64,000 nucleotides of DNA. It comes from Candidatus Micropelagos thuwalensis. GTDB lineage: Bacteria > Pseudomonadota > Alphaproteobacteria > RS24. Made by a program: the position numbers and the translations under genes. Shown one piece after another: positions 1,848-57,628 of this stretch. The stretch covers positions 62,001 to 126,000 of the forward strand of contig NZ_AWXE01000001.1 of assembly GCF_000469155.1 (NCBI RefSeq). The letters run 5' to 3'. Position 1 is the stretch's first letter, and every line of letters starts with the position of its first letter. The notes under the pieces were generated by a model. That model made no database searches. It saw nothing but the letters and a program-made list of their open reading frames with translations, and was not told the DNA's origin.

Positions 1848-4254
<2,407 letters not shown>

Positions 4255-6258: not shown

Positions 6259-7029
6259 ATGCAAGATATGTTTTCACATGGCGCGGTACTTATTTTCGGT
6301 GCGACCGGAGGGATCGGTCAACACGTTGTTATGGAATTTGCAAAAGCGGGTGCTGATTTGGCTCTTATCTGGCGGTCAAAAGAAGATGTCGCAAAAGATA
6401 TTGCGGCGCAGGTTGAAGCCTTAGGGCGTAAAGTGTCTCTTCATCATTGTGATGTCACCGAAGATGGCGCTGCGGCACGAGCAGTTGCTGAGGCAGCGCA
6501 GGCGCATGGTCGTGTCCACACACTTGTTTGGGGGGCGGGGCCGCTTGTTGATCAGGTGAAGATTGCTGATGTCACGACAGAGCAATGGAAGCGAGCCATT
6601 AATACCGAAGTCAATGGCTTCTTTGCTGCGGCGCAGGCAAGTATTTTGCATATGCGCGACAATGGTGGTGGGTCATTGGTGCATCTCGGTTCTGCGGGGG
6701 ATAGTAAGTTCCCTGACGAAGATGTCCTTTCCGTTTCACCAAAGGCGGCAAACGAGTCGCTCATCCAGGGCATTGCTCGCGAGGAGGGGCGTAACCAAAT
6801 CCGTGCAAATAGTGTTCTGGTTGGTGTGATTGAGGCAGGCATGTTTCTGGAGTTGACCAAGAAGGGGCATTTTGACGAAACATGGGTGAAAGAGGTACAT
6901 AAAAATCTTGCCCTTAAAAGATGGGGTCAGCCTGAAGAGATTGGTCACGCGGCGGTATTCCTTGCATCCAACCGTGCAGCTTATGTGACGGGTCAGCAAA
7001 TTTCTGTGTCAGGAGGTTATGGCATATGA
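6259..7029 (+). CDS. SDR-family protein lacking the catalytic tyrosine
   Basis: This 256-residue protein has the Rossmann start VLIFGATGGIGQ and a normal SDR tail (YVTGQQISVSGGYGI). In the active-site region the serine is present (HLGSAGD), but the YxxxK motif reads SVSPK, so the lysine is kept and the tyrosine position is Ser. It may be a non-redox or regulatory SDR, or use another acid. The ATG at 6259 follows GGAGGG; an upstream TTG at 6247 overlaps that site and is rejected. The stop overlaps the next start (ATGA), so it is coupled to the sulfotransferase-family gene. Confidence 0.85.
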   Translation: MQDMFSHGAVLIFGATGGIGQHVVMEFAKAGADLALIWRSKEDVAKDIAAQVEALGRKVSLHHCDVTEDGAAARAVAEAAQAHGRVHTLVWGAGPLVDQVKIADVTTEQWKRAINTEVNGFFAAAQASILHMRDNGGGSLVHLGSAGDSKFPDEDVLSVSPKAANESLIQGIAREEGRNQIRANSVLVGVIEAGMFLELTKKGHFDETWVKEVHKNLALKRWGQPEEIGHAAVFLASNRAAYVTGQQISVSGGYGI

Positions 7030-8183
7030 GTATGCCTGAAAGGGGTGTGCTGCTGGATGCCGCCCGTCAAACCGCCGGCCTTGATGATTTCGGTGACACA
7101 TGGTTCTTCGGCCATATGGATAAATTTATTGAATCGATTAACACCGAAGCGCGACTAAATGAGGACGGGCTAGGCGGTGTTCAGGGAATGGTTATTAATG
7201 CCATGGTCAACCGCTTACGCCACATCGAATTGGTCAAGCAAAATCCTGAAATTAAAGACTTGCCCGTTGATGTGAGCGCAATCGTGGTTGGTCTGCCGCG
7301 CACGGGTAGCACCATGATGCATCGCATGTTGTCATCAGCAAAAGGTATGACGGGTGTTAAATGGTATGAGACGCAAAATTATGCCCCTTTTCCTGGGGAG
7401 GCTCAGGGCAACTCGAGCCAACGACGTGAGGCTGCAAAAGGCATATTAGCTTACATGGTGGAGAAAATTCCCGAGATTATGTCTATTCATCCTATGAGCA
7501 TTGATCAGCCGGATGAAGAGGTCATTATTCTCGGACAGCTTTTTTCAAGCAGTATGATGGAGGCGTCTTACTATGTGCCGAGTTATGCCGCTTGGCTTGG
7601 GACACAGGATAGTGAGCAAGCTTATAGGGATTTGAGAGAAATCTATCAATCCTTTATGTGGCAAGACCCTTCACGTGAAGGAAAAAAATGGGTGCTAAAA
7701 ACTCCGGGCCATTTGATGGCACTGGATACGGCAATGGCGATTTTTCCAGATGCCAAAATAGTGATGACTCACCGCGATCCAGTTTCTACCGTACCGTCTT
7801 ATTGCAGCATGGAGTCCACACTTTATCGCATGGGGTCTGAGGAAATTACTCATGCTATGGTTGGGGAATATTGGTTTGAAAGATTAAGCCAATGGACGGA
7901 CTCTTTTATGTCGGTGCGTTCAAAGTCACCAGAGGAAAGATTTGTGGATGTAAAATATCCGGAATTGTTGAAAGACCCTATCGCCCAGGGGCAACGTGTT
8001 TTGCTGGCGGCAGGTATTGATGTTACGCCGGATGTTATTAATGATATGGGGCAGTGGATTGAAGCCAATAAAAGAGAGGATCGTGCGCCGCACAAATATG
8101 ATATCTCAGATTTTGGTCTCACCGAGGACATGATTAAAGAAAAATTTGCGGTATATCGTCAAAATTATCTGGGGGAAGACTAA
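7026..8183 (+). CDS. Sulfotransferase-family protein (Sulfotransfer_3 type)
   Basis: This 385-residue protein shows the two PAPS-binding signatures of sulfotransferases. GLPRTGSTMMHRM (about 89-101) is the 5'-phosphosulfate loop, and MTHRDPVSTVPSY (about 247-259) is the 3'-phosphate region. WVLKTPGHL lies between them. It has no signal peptide, so it is cytoplasmic. It overlaps the preceding SDR gene by four bases and is followed by an NTF2-like gene. Such proteins are often found in catabolic clusters with unknown acceptors. A role in sulfating or binding the substrate is possible, and the nearby sulfatases make the pairing notable. The acceptor cannot be inferred from sequence. Confidence 0.85.
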   Translation: MSMPERGVLLDAARQTAGLDDFGDTWFFGHMDKFIESINTEARLNEDGLGGVQGMVINAMVNRLRHIELVKQNPEIKDLPVDVSAIVVGLPRTGSTMMHRMLSSAKGMTGVKWYETQNYAPFPGEAQGNSSQRREAAKGILAYMVEKIPEIMSIHPMSIDQPDEEVIILGQLFSSSMMEASYYVPSYAAWLGTQDSEQAYRDLREIYQSFMWQDPSREGKKWVLKTPGHLMALDTAMAIFPDAKIVMTHRDPVSTVPSYCSMESTLYRMGSEEITHAMVGEYWFERLSQWTDSFMSVRSKSPEERFVDVKYPELLKDPIAQGQRVLLAAGIDVTPDVINDMGQWIEANKREDRAPHKYDISDFGLTEDMIKEKFAVYRQNYLGED

Positions 8184-32845: not shown

Positions 32846-33967
32846 TCATTTTCCCATTATTGCTGATGTATTTGATTTAAGACCGATTTGGTCTGCTAGC
32901 ATTTGAAAGCCGTCTTCTGATGACGTGAAGAGGGCGCGGTTGCTGCGGGCGCGTTTGAAAAAGTAGTGTAGGGGGTATTCCCATGTGAACCCTATGCCGC
33001 CATGCATCTGGATGGCATCGCCTGCTATTTTAAAAAAAGCTTCAGAGGCATAGTTTTTAGCAATTAAGGCAGCTTCAAATTTTGCTGTGCGATCACCATC
33101 CAAGTCGGGAGATGCAGCGAAATATGATGCTGATCGAGCGCTTTCCAGAGCAATGAACATATCCGCACATTTATGTTTTACAGATTGAAAGCTACCGATT
33201 TGTCTACCGAATTGAACGCGCTGATTGGCGTAATCCAGTGTCATATCTAAACACCTTTGTCCGCCACCGACACATTCAGCTGCGAGCGCGCCATGGGCGA
33301 TCTGGAGTGTTTGTGAAAAAGCAGTCTCGTCTGTTTTTCCAATCGCCTGTCCGTCAGAGAGTGAAACATTATCAAATGATACTTTTGCCTGACTTCGGGT
33401 TGGATCTATTGAGGCATAAGGCGTGACGCTTAATCCTGCAGTATTCGGACTATAGCCCGTCAGCACGATGTCATTGTCTTTGTTCTGTATTGCGACCAAA
33501 ATGAGGTCGGCATGAACGGCATCTGTTGCCGGAGAGATGGTGCCGTTTAATTTATTGTCTTCAAGGGATAATTTACCTCGCCCATCGAGTGCGGAAATAA
33601 TAATATCACCACTGGCGATTTTACTAAGCAAATCTGCTTTATCGTCTTCACTCGCAAAGGCTTCAATTATATCTGCCGCCAAAACGCAGGTTGAAAAGAA
33701 AGGAGCGCTGAAAAGTGTGTATCCAGTTTCTTCCATAATCACGGTTCGCCCCAAAAGCCCCATATCTGCACCACCATATTGTTCGGCGATACTTATGCCC
33801 GCCATACCTTGATCTCGGGCAAAGCCTTCCCATGCGGCACGGTCAAAACCGTGACCGTCTTTTGCGACACGATGCAATGTCTTGCCGCCATCTTCCCAAT
33901 CAGACAACCAGCCTTTAACGGCTTCCCGGATCATCTCGTGATCTTCTTGGAATGGAAATGGCGGCAT
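32846..33967 (-). CDS. Acyl-CoA dehydrogenase, small-subunit-type partner
   Basis: This 373-residue ACAD homologue has a weaker N-terminal half and a clear C-terminal half: ANQRVQFGRQIGSFQSVKH, then DAIQMHGGIGFTWEYPLHYFFKRA. The first is the helical flavin and subunit-contact motif. It lacks a YEGT-like catalytic loop. Such divergent partners occur in the alpha2beta2 steroid ACADs. GGGAGC precedes the ATG. It is encoded directly before the large-subunit gene at 31687, and the pair probably forms one enzyme. Confidence 0.87.
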   Translation of the reverse strand: MPPFPFQEDHEMIREAVKGWLSDWEDGGKTLHRVAKDGHGFDRAAWEGFARDQGMAGISIAEQYGGADMGLLGRTVIMEETGYTLFSAPFFSTCVLAADIIEAFASEDDKADLLSKIASGDIIISALDGRGKLSLEDNKLNGTISPATDAVHADLILVAIQNKDNDIVLTGYSPNTAGLSVTPYASIDPTRSQAKVSFDNVSLSDGQAIGKTDETAFSQTLQIAHGALAAECVGGGQRCLDMTLDYANQRVQFGRQIGSFQSVKHKCADMFIALESARSASYFAASPDLDGDRTAKFEAALIAKNYASEAFFKIAGDAIQMHGGIGFTWEYPLHYFFKRARSNRALFTSSEDGFQMLADQIGLKSNTSAIMGK

Positions 33968-40979: not shown

Positions 40980-41882
40980 TTACTCACCAATCTGTGGGAA
41001 ATCATATTCATGTCCCCAATAATCTCCAGAGGTTGTTTTTGTAGGCGTGTATTGTGACCAGTCGGCAATTTGCTTGCCGTCATAGCCATATTCTAGCCCC
41101 ATACCGCCGGGTGCAAAGAAATAGAATGATACCATTTCATCGTTAGAGTGACGACCAAGGTCAGAAAAAATATGTAATCCAGCCTTTTTGACCCGATCCA
41201 TGCAATAGCCGACTTCGTCAATCGACCCGACTTCAATCATGAGGTGGATAAGACCAGTCGGGCTTGGGAAGTTATAGAGTCCAAGTGTGTGATGACGCGG
41301 ATTATCGGCGTGTAAAAATAAAACACGCTGGTTTGGTGCGCCTTCTACAGGTGGGGGCAGAGTGAGGTCGTCACTAATGCCAAAACCAAACAAGGAGGTA
41401 TAAAATTCTTCAGTTGCCTCGTTTTCAGGCGCGGGAATAACCAGATGTCCTAGCCCCATCTCACCCGTGATAAAGGCCTTGATGTTATGATTGGGCGTGA
41501 AGGGGCTGCCATCATGCCGCCCATAATAAAACTCGACGAGATTTCCGGATGGATCATAGCAGGATGAAAAAGCTGTAACGGCGCGTCTAGTGGCTTCTTC
41601 CTCTGAGCCTGTCTCGACTTGAATGCCCGCGCCCTGAAGTTTCTCGACCAATGCGGCATATGCCTCGGCAGAGGAAAGTTGCAAGCCACCTGCCAAAAAT
41701 TTATCTTCGCTGCCTTGTTCGACAATATAACGGAAAGGCGCGTCATCCATTCGCAAATATTTCGAGCCATTTCCGTCATCATGTTCAGCAATGCCAAAGC
41801 CCAAAACATCAACTGCAAAATCTGCCCATGCTTTTGGGTCAGTCACTTGCAATCTGACGTAACCTAGATTTTCAATTCCCAT
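40980..41882 (-). CDS. hsaC: Extradiol ring-cleavage dioxygenase, HsaC/TesB-like
   Basis: This 300-residue two-domain type I extradiol dioxygenase has iron ligands predicted at His146 (GLGHLVIP), His213 (LIHLMIEV) and Glu264 (GLEYGY), plus a conserved His at 198 (RHHTLGLY). Length and ligand spacing match BphC/HsaC. The role is meta-cleavage of a catecholic A ring (3,4-DHSA) to DSHA. It lies 35 bases after the hydrolase gene HsaD and in the order A-D-C, as in steroid operons. BphC activity on biphenyl-type catechols is the alternative, less likely beside HIP genes. Confidence 0.93.
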   Translation of the reverse strand: MGIENLGYVRLQVTDPKAWADFAVDVLGFGIAEHDDGNGSKYLRMDDAPFRYIVEQGSEDKFLAGGLQLSSAEAYAALVEKLQGAGIQVETGSEEEATRRAVTAFSSCYDPSGNLVEFYYGRHDGSPFTPNHNIKAFITGEMGLGHLVIPAPENEATEEFYTSLFGFGISDDLTLPPPVEGAPNQRVLFLHADNPRHHTLGLYNFPSPTGLIHLMIEVGSIDEVGYCMDRVKKAGLHIFSDLGRHSNDEMVSFYFFAPGGMGLEYGYDGKQIADWSQYTPTKTTSGDYWGHEYDFPQIGE

Positions 41883-41917: not shown

Positions 41918-42751
41918 CTAGCCATGTTTCAAAAAGTCAATGCCGGTGGCGTTAAACATACGCGGGTGTTCAATCATCACCCAGTGACCACAAGCATTTA
42001 CCTCAATGAGACGCGACTGATTATTTGCCCTAAGGCAGGTCTGTTTCCCTTGGGGTGGCATGAATAAATCATCAGCTCCCCAGAAAGTAAGGATTGGACA
42101 GGTCAACTCCTGAAGTCTAGGCCCAAGATTAGGCGTCTTCATCGTTGTGATGACTTCCTTTGGTTGATCTTTCACAATATACCAACGCATTGCAATCAGG
42201 TCAGGTGTGATTAGCGTCTCATCAAAAACAAAGTTTCTCAAAACTTTTTGAAGTGTTTCCTCAGTAAGTCCGTCTTTCAGCGCATCAACCATTTTCGAGA
42301 TGCCGGGCATTGTGAAATAATCCTGCTGTTCTTCAATACAGCCGGGACCCATCATAATAAGTTTGTCCACAAAATTTGGGTCATTCAGGGCGATCTGGAC
42401 AGCAATCCCACCCCCCAGAGAATTACCAACAAAACTACAGGAAGAAATGCCAAGGGAGATTAATCCTGCCTTCAGTGTGTCACAGAATAAATCAAGCGTG
42501 TAATCACCAAGGTCAATCGGCTTATCGGTATAACCGAAACCGATAAGGTCAGGAAGGACGACATAAAAACCTGCATCAGCAAATTCCTGCGCGTTTTTGC
42601 TGAAGTTTGCGTAGCCACAATTCCCAGGCCCTGATCCGTGGAGAAAAACCACGGCGGGGTCATCAGGATTCCCGTATTCAAGAACATGCATCTTGATGGG
42701 GCCGGCTTCGACAAAACGGCCCTCTGGCGGTTTAGCGAGATATTCAGCCAT
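41918..42751 (-). CDS. hsaD: Meta-cleavage product C-C hydrolase, HsaD/TesD-like
   Basis: This 277-residue alpha/beta hydrolase has HGSGPGN (oxyanion loop, about 39-45) and the nucleophile elbow GNSLGGG with Ser111. GADDLFMPP gives Asp227 or Asp228, and NACGHWVMIEHP gives His256. This is the MCP-hydrolase pattern of HsaD, BphD and TesD. It would cleave the ring-A-opened product to HIP (DOHNAA) and a hexadienoate. Its start overlaps the stop of the HsaA-like gene by one base (TAATG). Strong context with HsaC and HsaA. Confidence 0.93.
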   Translation of the reverse strand: MAEYLAKPPEGRFVEAGPIKMHVLEYGNPDDPAVVFLHGSGPGNCGYANFSKNAQEFADAGFYVVLPDLIGFGYTDKPIDLGDYTLDLFCDTLKAGLISLGISSCSFVGNSLGGGIAVQIALNDPNFVDKLIMMGPGCIEEQQDYFTMPGISKMVDALKDGLTEETLQKVLRNFVFDETLITPDLIAMRWYIVKDQPKEVITTMKTPNLGPRLQELTCPILTFWGADDLFMPPQGKQTCLRANNQSRLIEVNACGHWVMIEHPRMFNATGIDFLKHG

Positions 42752-43920
42752 TAGACAAACAAGTCCGTGCTCTCGCCAGATAGTTGAATACCACCATAAT
42801 TGCGGGCAAAACCGACTGGATTATTTGCAACATGCGCGCGGGCGATATGGATGTCATGCCATATGGACTGAATAGGCGACCCGTCATAAACACTTCGTCC
42901 ACCAGCAACATCAAAAATCAGGTCAACCGCTTCCATCATACGTTCAATAACGAGACTGGCTTGATAACGATATTTCACGCGGTCAATCATGGGAATTTCT
43001 TCGCCCTTATTCACCTTGTCGAGCATCTCGTCAAAGTTTCTGAAAATTATAGCTTCGGTTTCGTCAATCAGTGTTGCGGCTTTAGCCACCCGAACCGTCA
43101 CATCCGGGTCTCCGGCAAGGCGCGTCGGGTCAGTGGAGCTAGATGTGGCATTCTCAATGAATAAGCGAAGCGCATGTTTTGCAGCCCCGATAGAAGGGGA
43201 GGATACGACACGGATAAAAAGTTGCGCCCAAGGTATTGAATACATTGGGTTTTCTTGATGGTGAACGCAGTTAAAGCCATCCATTTGAATGTGGGTTCTG
43301 TGTTCGGGTACAAAGACAGGCTCGTCAATCACAATGTCATTAGAACCCGTAGCGTGGAGTCCCATCGGAAACCAAGTTTCTTCAATTTCGTAATCACTGC
43401 GTGGGAGCAGGAATGTTCGATAGTGAATACCGTCCGGATGATCAGTGATGACACCACCCAGTAAGGTCCATGAGCAATGGCCTGAACCGCTACTCCACCC
43501 CCAGCGTCCGGAGAGTTCAAAGCCACCATCGACAGTTTTCACTTTGGCGCCTGCTGGATTGTAGGAGGATGAAATGAGAGTGTCAGGGGTATCAGCATAA
43601 ACCTCTTCAGCTGCTTGCGGCGGCATAATGGCGAGTTGATAAGCATGAACGGCGATGATGCCCCCCGCCCAAGCTGTGCTCATATCACGCTCGGCAATAT
43701 CGATTGCGGAGCGAAAGAACTCCTGAGGTGTGCATTCATAGCCACCATATTTTTTGGGCAGGAGCATTCTGAAAAAGCCCTGCTCACGAAGTGCTTCAAT
43801 GCTGCTGTTGGGTATTTGTCTGTTCTCTTTTCCTTCAGGTGCATTCTTCTCAATTAGTTTCAAAACAGGAGCCACATTTATGCTGGACATATTGCCGGTT
43901 TCCAAGGCTGCTTGACTCAT
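42751..43920 (-). CDS. hsaA: Flavin-dependent phenol hydroxylase, HsaA-like (ACAD fold)
   Basis: This 389-residue group D flavin monooxygenase has the ACAD fold without an acyl-CoA-dehydrogenase active loop. It shows LLPKKYGGYECTPQEFFRSA, DMSTAWAGGIIAVHAYQL, SGRWGWSSGSGHCSW and FVPEHRTH. The C-terminal DVAGGRSVYDGSPIQSIWHDIHIARAH is typical of HsaA and HpaC-partner hydroxylases. It hydroxylates 3-HSA to 3,4-DHSA using reduced flavin from HsaB. Candidate reductase: 48344-49297. GGAGGA precedes the ATG. It is the first gene of the unidirectional run ending at 25984. Confidence 0.92.
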   Translation of the reverse strand: MSQAALETGNMSSINVAPVLKLIEKNAPEGKENRQIPNSSIEALREQGFFRMLLPKKYGGYECTPQEFFRSAIDIAERDMSTAWAGGIIAVHAYQLAIMPPQAAEEVYADTPDTLISSSYNPAGAKVKTVDGGFELSGRWGWSSGSGHCSWTLLGGVITDHPDGIHYRTFLLPRSDYEIEETWFPMGLHATGSNDIVIDEPVFVPEHRTHIQMDGFNCVHHQENPMYSIPWAQLFIRVVSSPSIGAAKHALRLFIENATSSSTDPTRLAGDPDVTVRVAKAATLIDETEAIIFRNFDEMLDKVNKGEEIPMIDRVKYRYQASLVIERMMEAVDLIFDVAGGRSVYDGSPIQSIWHDIHIARAHVANNPVGFARNYGGIQLSGESTDLFV

Positions 43921-43973
43921 TTTAAAGATCCTCCGGTAAAATTTGTAACGTTAGGATGAGAATATCAAATATG

Positions 43974-44037
43974 CGTAAAAATAAAACAGTTTTTTACGAA
44001 TTTTTACTTAAAATATGCAAAAAATATCATTTTTGCA
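43974..44037. promoter_or_regulatory. Two inverted repeats upstream of hsaA
   Basis: CGTAAAAA (43974-43981) pairs with TTTTTACG (43991-43998). TGCAAAAA (44016-44023) pairs with TTTTTGCA (44030-44037). Both lie in the 136-base gap between the fadD3-like stop and the hsaA start. The second could end fadD3... no: fadD3 ends at 44057 after both repeats in map order, and transcription of hsaA starts here. Both are best read as operators or promoter elements for the long minus-strand operon. Confidence 0.45.
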
Positions 44038-44056
44038 GAATTTATTTTCCAAATAC

Positions 44057-45586
44057 CTACATTTCCTCAAATAAAAACTTCTGAACTTTACCAGAGGCGT
44101 TTCGCGGCAAATCTTCAAGTACGGTTATTTTGCGCGGCACTTTGAAATTAGAAATTCTTTCCTTAATCCACGTCATCAGGGCTTCTGTGTCAATGTCTGG
44201 GGTGCGGGCTATAATAAAGGCTTGCGGTACTTCGCCAAGACGGTCATCCGCCATCCCGATAACAGCAGCATCAATCACGTCAGGGTGCTGCATCAGCCAT
44301 TTTTCAATTTCTGCGGGGTAGGCGTTGAAGCCCCCGACAATAATCATGTCTTTTTTTCTGTCAGTTATCCGAAGATAGCCTTTGTCATCCATTGTGCCGA
44401 CATCACCGGTTTTCAGCCAGCCGTCTGATGTTATGGTATGCGCTGTATCTTCGGGCGCATCAAGATAGCCCTGCATGGCATTGAAACCACGTACCCAGAT
44501 TTCTCCTTCTTCGCCGGTGTCCACCTGATTTCCATCTTCGTCCACCAAGATAACTTCTGTTTCAGGAAGAGGACGCCCTACCGTTGTTGCGATGGTTTCA
44601 AAATCGTCGCCCTTCCGGCATAAAGAAACAACGCCGCAAGTTTCTGTGAGGCCATAGGCAGAATAAACGTGATCAATGCCAATGACTTCGTGCATTTTCC
44701 GGATCAAATCGACAGGAATTACCGTAGCGCCTGTCGTTGCAAGGCGCAGGGATGACAAGTCTCTTTTATCAAAATCGGGATGATCCATGATGGTCTGGAA
44801 AATCGTTGGCGCACCCGGCATGACTGTAATTCTATCTTCTTCAATACGTCTTAAAACATCACCGGGGTCAAAGACGCCAAGCGGATAGATTGTGGCGGCG
44901 CGGATAAGGCAACTCAGCCAGCCAGCCTTATAACCAAAACTATGGAAGAAAGGGTTTACCACCAGATATCGATCACCTTGCTGCATATCAATCGCATTGG
45001 TAAAAACATCGAAGACGCTGATATTTTGCCCGTGATGTGTGACAGCGCCTTTGGGGAGGCCCGTCGTTCCGGAAGTAAAAATGATGTCTGAAGGGTCGTC
45101 TGGCCCTATGTAATCTAGCGCTTCCTCAGCGAGCGGCGCATCAGCAAAATCCAGAAGGTTTTGAAAGCCGTCATTTCCGTCTTTATCTCTAAGTATGAGA
45201 GTTTCCTGCAAATCGGGAAGATCTTCGCCCTCAATCATAGATGGATAATCAAGGCCGAGAAACCCATCAACTGTGAGCAGCAGTTTACACCCGGATCGGC
45301 GGATGATATCTGCGGCCTCCGACCCTTTATAGCGGGTATTGAGAGTTACAAGCACGCTCCCCAATGTCTGACCGGCAAGCGCGGTGACAATCCACTCAGC
45401 ACAATTTGGTGCCCAGATAGCAAATTTATCTCCTTTGCTTAATCCTTTGGTTTGGAAGGCCGCCGCGACTTTTAAAACCTGATGTTGTAAATCGCGATAA
45501 CTGGTGGTCGTGCCATTATCGACAATGGCTGCAAGGTCAGGATTTTTATGAACTGTTTGTTTTAAAACACCAGGAATTGTTTGCAT
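44057..45586 (-). CDS. fadD3: Acid-CoA ligase, FadD3-like (HIP-CoA ligase)
   Basis: This 509-residue adenylate-forming ligase has DIIFTSGTTGLPKGAV (P-loop, about 165-180), VNPFFHSFGYKAGWL, YGLTETCG and DGWLKTGDVG. ITDRKKDMIIVGGFNAYPAEIE and RNASGKVQKF hold the hinge and catalytic Lys. The FFHSFGYKAG segment and total length agree with actinobacterial FadD3, which activates HIP. The ATG at 45586 follows AGAAGG; a longer frame is rejected. It is divergent from the SDR at 45683. The same region contains a TTACGCAA motif. Confidence 0.9.
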   Translation of the reverse strand: MQTIPGVLKQTVHKNPDLAAIVDNGTTTSYRDLQHQVLKVAAAFQTKGLSKGDKFAIWAPNCAEWIVTALAGQTLGSVLVTLNTRYKGSEAADIIRRSGCKLLLTVDGFLGLDYPSMIEGEDLPDLQETLILRDKDGNDGFQNLLDFADAPLAEEALDYIGPDDPSDIIFTSGTTGLPKGAVTHHGQNISVFDVFTNAIDMQQGDRYLVVNPFFHSFGYKAGWLSCLIRAATIYPLGVFDPGDVLRRIEEDRITVMPGAPTIFQTIMDHPDFDKRDLSSLRLATTGATVIPVDLIRKMHEVIGIDHVYSAYGLTETCGVVSLCRKGDDFETIATTVGRPLPETEVILVDEDGNQVDTGEEGEIWVRGFNAMQGYLDAPEDTAHTITSDGWLKTGDVGTMDDKGYLRITDRKKDMIIVGGFNAYPAEIEKWLMQHPDVIDAAVIGMADDRLGEVPQAFIIARTPDIDTEALMTWIKERISNFKVPRKITVLEDLPRNASGKVQKFLFEEM

Positions 45587-48208: not shown

Positions 48209-48291
48209 TTATTGTTCACCTTCTGCTTGAGGTAATTAAAAAAGCATATTTCGGTTGCGATGACAAAGTAATTGATGCAGTTTCGAGCTTC

Positions 48292-48315
48292 ATTTAGGCG
48301 AAGAATGACCTAAAT
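48292..48315. promoter_or_regulatory. Inverted repeat upstream of the flavin reductase-MarR gene
   Basis: ATTTAGG (48292-48298) and CCTAAAT (48309-48315) form 7-base arms with a 10-base spacer, 28 bases before the GTG start at 48344. The spacing of half-sites on one DNA face suits a dimeric regulator. The adjacent gene itself encodes a MarR-like domain, so self-regulation is conceivable but not shown. Confidence 0.45.
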
Positions 48316-48343
48316 ATTATTAAAATTGTTGAAAGGTATTGTC

Positions 48344-49297
48344 GTGACCACAGATCAAAAAGAACTAAGAAATGCTCTCGGGCAGTTTGCAACAGGTGTA
48401 ACAGTTGTCACGACCTCGGATGAAGATAAAGTGCCTGTTGGTGTGACTGCCAGCAGTTTTAACTCAGTGTCCCTTGATCCACCTCTTGTATTGTGGTCGT
48501 TGTCAAAAACCGCAAAATCAATGCCGGCCTTTGAAAATTCCGGTGGCTTTAATGTTCATATTCTCGCGGCGCATCAAACTGATATTTCCAACCGCTTCGC
48601 CAGCTCGCAAGGTGACAAATTTGACGGTATTGATTTCAGCACCTGTGATATGGGTTTCCCACTTCTAAATGAATATGCGGCTTTGTTTCGCTGTAAAACT
48701 CATTACCAATATGAGGGCGGAGACCATATTATTTTTGTCGGTGAGGTTGTCGAATATCAGACCAACCCTCTGCCCGTTCTGATATTTCACGGCGGTAAAT
48801 ATGCCGATGCGCGTCCGAAATTGAAAAAAGAAGATGCCGATGAGGTCGTGGATTTACACAGTGGTAAGTTTACTGAAAACTATTTGCTCTATCTTATTTC
48901 CAGAGCGCATTTCCAGACGTCGCTTCCCGTTCGCCAAACTTATATAGAGCAAGGTCTCAGTGATCAGGAATTTTTCTGCCTTTCACTTTTATCCATGAAT
49001 GGTGGTTTGTCTCCTGAGGTCATTTCTGATCGGCTGGCGCATACAGGGCATGCTCCTGACAATGAAATTTTTGAGCGGCTCGCCAGAAAAGAACTTATCA
49101 GTCAAGAAGGTAATGACACCGGCGACATTTCGCTGACGGAGACAGGGCAGGGCGTGTTTATCGAACTCCTTGCGCAGTCCAAAGCGCTGGAGGAACAACT
49201 TACAAAACATTTTTCTGAAGACGAAATCGACACAGTCGTTCGTTTTATGAAAAAGATTGTTGATATTACCGGCTCAGAAATTCCTGAACTCTGGTAA
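48344..49297 (+). CDS. hsaB: Flavin reductase fused to a MarR-like winged-helix domain (HsaB/C1-like)
   Basis: This 317-residue protein has an N-terminal flavin reductase domain (about 1-160): ALGQFATGVTVVTT, VGVTASSFNSVSLDPPLVLW and GGDHIIFVGEVVEY. A C-terminal helical region (about 175-317) follows with MarR-like phrases: FCLSLLSMNGGLSPEVISDR, EIFERLARKELISQEG and ISLTETGQGVFIELLAQ. HsaB normally has only the first domain. The same layout is known for the C1 reductase of p-hydroxyphenylacetate hydroxylase, whose MarR-like domain senses substrate. The GTG start at 48344 follows GAAAGG; an upstream TTG is rejected. It likely feeds reduced FMN to HsaA at 42751. Confidence 0.88.
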   Translation: MTTDQKELRNALGQFATGVTVVTTSDEDKVPVGVTASSFNSVSLDPPLVLWSLSKTAKSMPAFENSGGFNVHILAAHQTDISNRFASSQGDKFDGIDFSTCDMGFPLLNEYAALFRCKTHYQYEGGDHIIFVGEVVEYQTNPLPVLIFHGGKYADARPKLKKEDADEVVDLHSGKFTENYLLYLISRAHFQTSLPVRQTYIEQGLSDQEFFCLSLLSMNGGLSPEVISDRLAHTGHAPDNEIFERLARKELISQEGNDTGDISLTETGQGVFIELLAQSKALEEQLTKHFSEDEIDTVVRFMKKIVDITGSEIPELW

Positions 49298-56497: not shown

Positions 56498-57628
56498 CTA
56501 ATCTGATTTCTTGTCCACGTCGAGTGAGGTGATAGTTTTTTTGCCCTCCTTCTCCCATTCTGCGTAAAACTGCGAGAAATAACTCCGGAATGCCGGAATA
56601 GGGCCGTCACCGTCACATATAATCGGACGATTAAGATATTTTTGTCTGTCCCAGACAACCTTATCCTGATCAAGCTGTTTGCAAATATCTTTTTTCAAAG
56701 CTTTTGCTAGACCTTGCATCGGGCCGTTTGCCTCTTCTTTTGGCTGGGTAAAGGCAAAGCGGATATGGATGCGGTCTGGGGCAATGGGTGTCACACCGGA
56801 AATCAAAAGGGTTTCTGAAATCCCGGAAAATTTAGTCCAGCTTTGGCCTGGGCCAACTGTGCCATAGGCAATTTTGCCGTCAATTTCGCCTTTAGGCGTC
56901 CCCATTTTTGCTTCAACTGTGGCAGTGCGTTTATGTCCGTCAAAATTCATTTTGTAATCGGGAAATGTTGCTGTGCCGTGGACATATTTAAAATGTGCGG
57001 CGTCTACCCCATTCTCGGCTAAATTTTGAATAGGGCCTCGGACAATCCACTCATGTTTGTCAAATTCGGTCCAATCCGGATTAAAAATCTCTTCAAAGCG
57101 GTCAACTTCCCATTTCGGAGCTTCATCATAAGGGTGATACCAAAACCAAACAGCCTTGTTTTCTTCGCATGTCTGATATTGTGTCGCCGGTGGCTTGGCT
57201 GCTGATGGTGGAAGTCTTTTCGCATACGGCACATTGGTCACGCAACCTTGTTCATTATAGGCCCAGGCATGGAAGGGGCAGACGAGGTCGTTTCCTTCAA
57301 CTTTACCGCCATAGCCCATATGTGCGCCAAGGTGGCGGCAATAGGCGTCAATGAGTCTTGGCTGCCCGTCCTCACCGCGCCACAAAACCAAATCGCGTCC
57401 GAAATATTGAAGAGGTTTCACTTCTCCTATGGCCAATTCGTCGGAATAGCAGGCCATAAACCAGCCATATGGGTAAGGCAGAACATCGAGATTTCTCATT
57501 TCAACGGTGGAGACATTATCCAGTTCAGCCATTCGCCATTTGGTGAGTTCTTCCCCTCTGAGCGATTCCAGTACTTGCCAGACACCTACTGGGGCTGTTC
57601 TTGCATCTTCTTGCTTAATGTCACTCAT
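56498..57628 (-). CDS. Rieske non-heme iron oxygenase, KshA-like
   Basis: This 376-residue oxygenase has YCRHLGAHMGYGG with CPFHAWAYNEQG as Rieske ligands (CxH and CxxH) and NLAENGVDAAHFKYVHG as the mononuclear iron motif. The C-terminal FRSYFSQFYAEWEKEG is like that of KshA. It is longer than the Rieske enzyme at 18751, mainly at the N-terminus. It follows an amidohydrolase gene at 11 bases and a CoA ligase gene, all minus strand. Ring or side-chain hydroxylation of a steroid is likely. No reductase is adjacent. Confidence 0.88.
   Translation of the reverse strand: MSDIKQEDARTAPVGVWQVLESLRGEELTKWRMAELDNVSTVEMRNLDVLPYPYGWFMACYSDELAIGEVKPLQYFGRDLVLWRGEDGQPRLIDAYCRHLGAHMGYGGKVEGNDLVCPFHAWAYNEQGCVTNVPYAKRLPPSAAKPPATQYQTCEENKAVWFWYHPYDEAPKWEVDRFEEIFNPDWTEFDKHEWIVRGPIQNLAENGVDAAHFKYVHGTATFPDYKMNFDGHKRTATVEAKMGTPKGEIDGKIAYGTVGPGQSWTKFSGISETLLISGVTPIAPDRIHIRFAFTQPKEEANGPMQGLAKALKKDICKQLDQDKVVWDRQKYLNRPIICDGDGPIPAFRSYFSQFYAEWEKEGKKTITSLDVDKKSD

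Follow-up and report, generated by a model that had tools for sequence, protein, structure and literature searches.

Does the MarR-like domain carried by a flavin reductase in a steroid-type gene cluster make the supply of reduced flavin for ring-A hydroxylation depend on the substrate, as in C1, the reductase of p-hydroxyphenylacetate 3-hydroxylase? The gene that raises this question lies in the 64-kb stretch of DNA analysed here (the window), from a genome of 1.96 Mb that is 99.4% complete and whose nearest relatives are PS1-clade alphaproteobacteria. The original prediction described the product as a HsaB-type flavin reductase fused to a MarR-like domain, and this fusion was confirmed: it is real and well beyond chance, with PF01613 at the N-terminus and a MarR fold at the C-terminus by profile and model. 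The gene is built as follows:

48344..49297, plus strand: MarR-fused flavin reductase, an open frame of 317 aa with a GTG start
48380..48808, plus strand: N-terminal flavin reductase domain, residues 13-155 (PF01613, E 1.3e-38)
48815..48871, plus strand: low-confidence linker, residues ~158-176 (pLDDT <50 across residues 148-192 of the whole-protein model)
48872..49294, plus strand: C-terminal MarR-fold domain (C-domain), residues ~177-310, plus tail to 317, by profile and model
48890..48916, plus strand: YLISRAHFQ, residues 183-191, a signature of HsaA-linked fused reductases
49283..49294, plus strand: C-terminal tail PELW, residues 314-317 (PxLW in the HsaA-linked clade)

The GTG start is common to all five PS1 orthologues, which are 91-94% identical to the window reductase over the full length, and the upstream DNA of the five can be aligned up to the same GTGACCAC. 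Both observations support the GTG start, and its retention in these orthologues makes a longer, TTG-started frame at 48326 unlikely. The HpaC/HsaB-type flavin reductase domain covers about residues 4-157 and matches the HsaB model NF045630 at positions 5-165 of 186 (E 3.5e-40; 138 bits, below the curated equivalog cut-off of 230). Over nearly its whole length the protein resembles C1: residues 3-307 align with positions 5-308 of 309 of NF045919, the model of C1-type HPAH reductases (E 2.1e-60; 204 bits, below the curated equivalog cut-off of 340), phmmer matched residues 4-294 to PDB 5zc2 (E 6.9e-38), and Foldseek with the whole-protein model ranked C1 first (top matches 5zyr, 5zc2). The C1-like layout that had been proposed is thus borne out by HMM, phmmer and Foldseek.

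When the single sequence was searched against Pfam, the C-terminal region gave only a weak MarR_2 match (E 0.02-0.08; 15.3 bits, below the cut-off of 27). A profile of 13 related C-domains matched the solved MarR chain 3cdh with E 7.9e-19, together with many other MarR chains, and the same profile also recovered C1 at residues 190-313; when profiles were compared with those built from the C-domains of C1-type reductases, the probability was 96.6% over 123 columns. The AlphaFold models are modest and built on shallow alignments (pLDDT 64 for the whole protein, too weak to place the two domains relative to each other, and 69 for the C-domain alone), and their comparison with C1 and MarR agreed with the prediction, C1 coming top for the whole protein and the matches listed by VIA-align 2 for the C-domain being MarR-type proteins (best Z 9.7). 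Taken together, the profile matches and the Foldseek and VIA-align 2 results confirm the MarR fusion. Indeed, the C-domain shares both fold and sequence profile with MarR-family regulators (3cdh, 7kfo, NadR, HpaR); unlike them, it is covalently joined to an enzyme and has an acidic recognition helix and wing.

DNA binding by the C-domain is unlikely, because the recognition helix and wing (residues 235-268) carry a net charge of -5. One could propose that the C-domain is a working DNA-binding regulator, so that the protein would be an enzyme and at the same time a repressor of the steroid cluster, and the MarR fold itself and a strongly conserved non-coding block just upstream speak for this; with an acidic helix and wing, a net charge of -9 over residues 193-290, no basic wing motif found when sought in the C-domain of the window reductase, and a clear contrast to two other fused reductases, we regard it as very improbable. 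Those two (L052:4967-5926, plus strand, and L123:9683-10681, minus strand) have a basic DRR wing and a MarR domain above the Pfam MarR cut-off, and judged by these sequence features they might still bind DNA.

The original prediction further assigned the reductase to steroid ring-A hydroxylation, and the following genes of the window bear on this point:

42751..43920, minus strand: HsaA-type oxygenase, the proposed partner (NF045629 327 bits vs 201 for NF045920, the C2 model; best PDB match 2rfq, the oxygenase of 3-HSA hydroxylase)
41918..42751, minus strand: HsaD-like hydrolase (NF045632 E 1.9e-45, below cut-off)
40980..41882, minus strand: HsaC/BphC-like extradiol dioxygenase (TIGR03213 268 bits, NF045631 249 bits, both below cut-off; best PDB matches 2zi8/2zyq)
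44057..45583, minus strand: FadD3-family acyl-CoA ligase (NF005801 639 bits vs cut-off 657)
56498..57628, minus strand: KshA-like Rieske oxygenase (PF19298 KshA_C E 1.3e-28; best PDB match 4qdc)
32846..33967, minus strand: IpdE2-family acyl-CoA dehydrogenase of the steroid C/D-ring pathway (NF050027 E 1.5e-49, below cut-off)

In addition, a KstD-like flavoprotein is encoded in the window; no IpdAB genes were seen in these 64 kb, and one PF01144 gene is located elsewhere in the genome. Since the HsaA, HsaC and HsaD matches all fall below the NCBIfam cut-offs, a related substrate is conceivable, and the cluster might handle another phenolic or biphenyl-like compound, with the HsaA-like protein acting as an alkylphenol hydroxylase that is not steroid-specific. 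The HsaC-like protein does score better with the biphenyl-2,3-diol dioxygenase model than with HsaC, and HsaA relatives with other substrates exist, for example IppA1 (PMC12442392). Against this, steroid enzymes are the best solved relatives in the PDB of the HsaA, HsaC and KshA (Rieske oxygenase) homologues, and the KshA_C, FadD3-family, KstD-like and IpdE2-family genes occupy the same window, which leaves this explanation only a slight chance.

The reductase is a single plus-strand gene 4.4 kb from the HsaA/HsaD/HsaC-like genes and outside the hsaA operon, and a profile search found it to be the only PF01613 flavin reductase in the genome. The gene order around it is preserved in five PS1 relatives, and the order HsaC-D-A-FadD3-SDR...OYE-SnoaL-reductase also occurs, with an insertion and at 60-81% identity, in a Hellea MAG. 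A survey of the GTDB family showed, for each of the six genomes in the genus, an HsaA orthologue (at 94-100%) and an open frame of 321-327 aa that contains a PF01613 reductase; other genera of the family had only distant HsaA homologues (E of at least 4e-38) and PF01613 open frames mostly of 165-208 aa, the exceptions being the fused reductase of G744 and a 342-aa frame in G753. The pairing of the window reductase with the HsaA-type oxygenase, which the original prediction had presumed, is therefore supported at the genomic level by the sole PF01613 gene, the conserved synteny and the clade-level association. The sole PF01613 gene can also be read in another way, namely that the reductase mainly serves a different flavin consumer or supplies reduced flavin generally. 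The genome encodes an NtaA/DmoA-family FMN monooxygenase on contig 5 (TIGR03860 460 bits, above the cut-off; the only Bac_luciferase gene), which may be a further user of the reduced flavin, and a related fused reductase of Cupriavidus adjoins an LLM gene. We consider such a role improbable, as the monooxygenase lies on a different contig, the reductase stays near the hsa genes in both PS1 and Hellea, and the tree described below places it among the HsaA-linked reductases.

A maximum-likelihood tree was built from 31 fused proteins. A branch with support 100/99 has the HsaA-linked members together on the same side, the C2-linked members form a separate group with the same support (100/99), and the HsaA-link and C2-link labels each require one change on the tree. 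A fused reductase and an HsaA-type oxygenase share a neighbourhood in G488, G453, G294 and a Diaphorobacter plasmid, G488 and G453 being from the phylum of the window genome and from other classes, and the two genes lie apart within the same genome or plasmid in G634 and in a Vibrio alfacsensis plasmid. Five fused reductases inside the HsaA-linked clade have no known HsaA-type partner, namely those of G523, Cupriavidus, Massilia, Croceicoccus and Azospirillum: a search that covered the first four obtained no strong HsaA-type match in the G523 genome, the Cupriavidus plasmid or the Massilia plasmid, and a weak one in the Croceicoccus plasmid. NF045629 alone was rejected as a count of HsaA carriers, because it also takes C2-type (267-306 bits) and other group D oxygenases; owing to this low specificity it was used, at E 1e-85, only to pick the loci for neighbourhood reading.

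Some further architectures were noted in this survey. Besides the fused reductase, the Vibrio alfacsensis plasmid pVa1 (L132; NZ_CP032095.1:68891-70030) carries an HsaA homologue and genes resembling tesE, tesF and tesG, a gene content that suggests a plasmid-borne steroid pathway. In two alphaproteobacterial genomes of one family (L118:9925-11205, plus strand; L119:8669-9997, minus strand), a flavin reductase domain is joined in frame with an enoyl-CoA hydratase domain, an uncommon fusion of 427 and 443 aa whose reductase domain is 58-61% identical to that of the window. Moreover, the flavin reductases of L055, L056 and L057 have a different C-terminal extension of ~140 residues with no MarR features by eye, and a length like that of 3rh7.

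Compared with C1 (HpaC) of Acinetobacter baumannii (5zc2/5zyr), the window reductase has the same reductase plus MarR layout at ~31-35% identity over the full length; unlike C1, it lies near an HsaA-type and not a C2-type oxygenase, belongs to a clade apart from the C2-linked reductases, has Ser in place of the arginine of GFRT, and carries YLxxRAHFQ and a PxLW tail. With HsaB of actinobacterial steroid degraders (NF045630) it shares the N-terminal domain and, presumably, the partner and the reaction, whereas HsaB is a single domain and the window reductase has 317 residues with an extra folded domain of 150. That HsaB normally consists of one domain agrees with the HsaB model (186 positions) and with several proteobacterial clusters, but does not hold for this lineage. 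Likewise, the novelty attributed to the fusion stands in part: it is not peculiar to this genome and is found in other steroid-type clusters, and no MarR domain described on a steroid hydroxylase reductase was found in the literature, which is weak evidence of absence given a partial coverage with few subscription papers.

TesA1 of Comamonas testosteroni would have the same role as the window reductase. At locus L113, a fused gene has a divergent tesA2-like gene on one side and tesD-, tesE-, tesF- and tesG-like genes on the other, an arrangement that is the tesA2/tesA1-tesD-tesE-tesF-tesG order reported for Comamonas and differs from the order in the window; in Comamonas CNB-1 the locus tags of TesD, TesA1 and TesA2 are consecutive (PMC8399759). 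Because a fused homologue takes the tesA1 position of a cluster with this order, Comamonas TesA1 is probably MarR-fused as well. The fusion architecture is thus already known from C1, and in Comamonas TesA1 it is probably present but undescribed.

The C-domain itself bears marks of the HsaA-linked group. YLxxR[AS][HY]FQ is present in all members of the HsaA-linked set except Diaphorobacter, a PxLW-type tail is common to the set, and both are absent from C1; being derived from the same sequences, these motifs describe the group and do not test it. The residues of C1 that contact HPA are, we presume, R21, F216, R217, I246 and R247 (positions counted along the 5zc2 sequence), and at these positions the window reductase has N10, L205, S206, G235 and A237, the equivalence of G235 and A237 resting on a gapped alignment. 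S206 aligns with the conserved Arg of the GLRT/GFRT segment of the C1 group, and no HsaA-linked member has this Arg. The ligand pocket has diverged from that of C1, which is consistent with a different ligand.

Another reading is that control by a ligand was lost, or that the MarR domain is only structural or serves dimerisation, with HsaA still the partner and flavin supply constitutive. Outside PS1 and Hellea the C-domain is only 16-31% identical to other fused groups, and the tesA2-like genes of several other proteobacterial clusters (G169, G042, G266, G652 and G436) have a single-domain reductase of 159-173 aa within ~2 kb, so that gating is not needed for the chemistry. On the other side, the C-domain is under purifying selection, with a dN/dS of 0.050 against 0.035 for the N-domain (synonymous sites being near saturation, with no finite dS in 4 of 15 C-domain comparisons), and this, together with the clade-specific motif and tail, suggests that it retained a specific role. 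Constitutive supply is an unlikely reading, though one to be taken seriously.

We rather favour, as a probable explanation, that the window protein is a C1-like effector-gated reductase of a two-component 3-HSA 4-hydroxylase, retuned to a phenolic secosteroid. The N-terminal domain would oxidise NADH and reduce flavin, the C-terminal MarR-fold domain would restrain it as in C1, and a phenolic secosteroid (3-HSA, or a CoA or side-chain analogue) would bind the MarR-fold domain and lift the restraint, after which the oxygenase encoded at 42751-43920, the HsaA-like one, would receive the reduced flavin. The domains, the lineage and the genomic pairing come directly from this analysis; the proposed autoinhibition, with its relief by the steroid, is carried over from C1 by analogy. 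In C1, the MarR domain autoinhibits flavin reduction until HPA binds, and effector-stimulated flavin reduction is uncommon outside A. baumannii C1 (both from the review PMC10816480). On the simplest reading, the window reductase would follow the C1 mechanism with a different ligand, in all likelihood the phenolic secosteroid hydroxylated by HsaA. Whether a widespread proteobacterial branch of ring-A hydroxylases reads the secosteroid with an intramolecular MarR sensor, and releases reduced flavin only with substrate, we judge to be evenly balanced.

If gating holds, this branch would give C1-type gating a second natural occurrence, here with a steroid ligand and retained even in a 2-Mb genome with one PF01613 flavin reductase; reduced flavin, and the peroxide from its uncoupling, would be released only in the presence of substrate. 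Further, if the clade behaves like C1, the coupling of NADH use to substrate would be recurrent and would extend to a central step in how bacteria, marine ones included, degrade steroids. The clade-specific motif offers named residues for mutation. The lack of a tesA1 homologue in some steroid degraders is a noted puzzle (PMC6895838), on which the finding of two architectures bears: at least two kinds of reductase lie near tesA2 genes, and therefore a search aimed at one of them can overlook the other.

Several non-coding and distal features of the window were also recorded. A block of ~60 bp at 48237-48298, between the reductase and a divergent SnoaL gene, is nearly invariant in six PS1 genomes, with variable intergenic bases on its flanks, and the window contains a single copy of its core; an Rfam search around the reductase gene, this block included, gave no match. 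Upstream of hsaA, two inverted repeats of similar sequence with 15-nt arms lie at 43967-44044, the gene-proximal one well conserved across PS1 relatives and the other less so, and they are a possible operator. At the left end of the window, a sulfatase (280-1827), a DUF3604 protein (1848-3764) and a sulfotransferase (7026-8183) are encoded, genes that are possibly tied to sulfated sterols.
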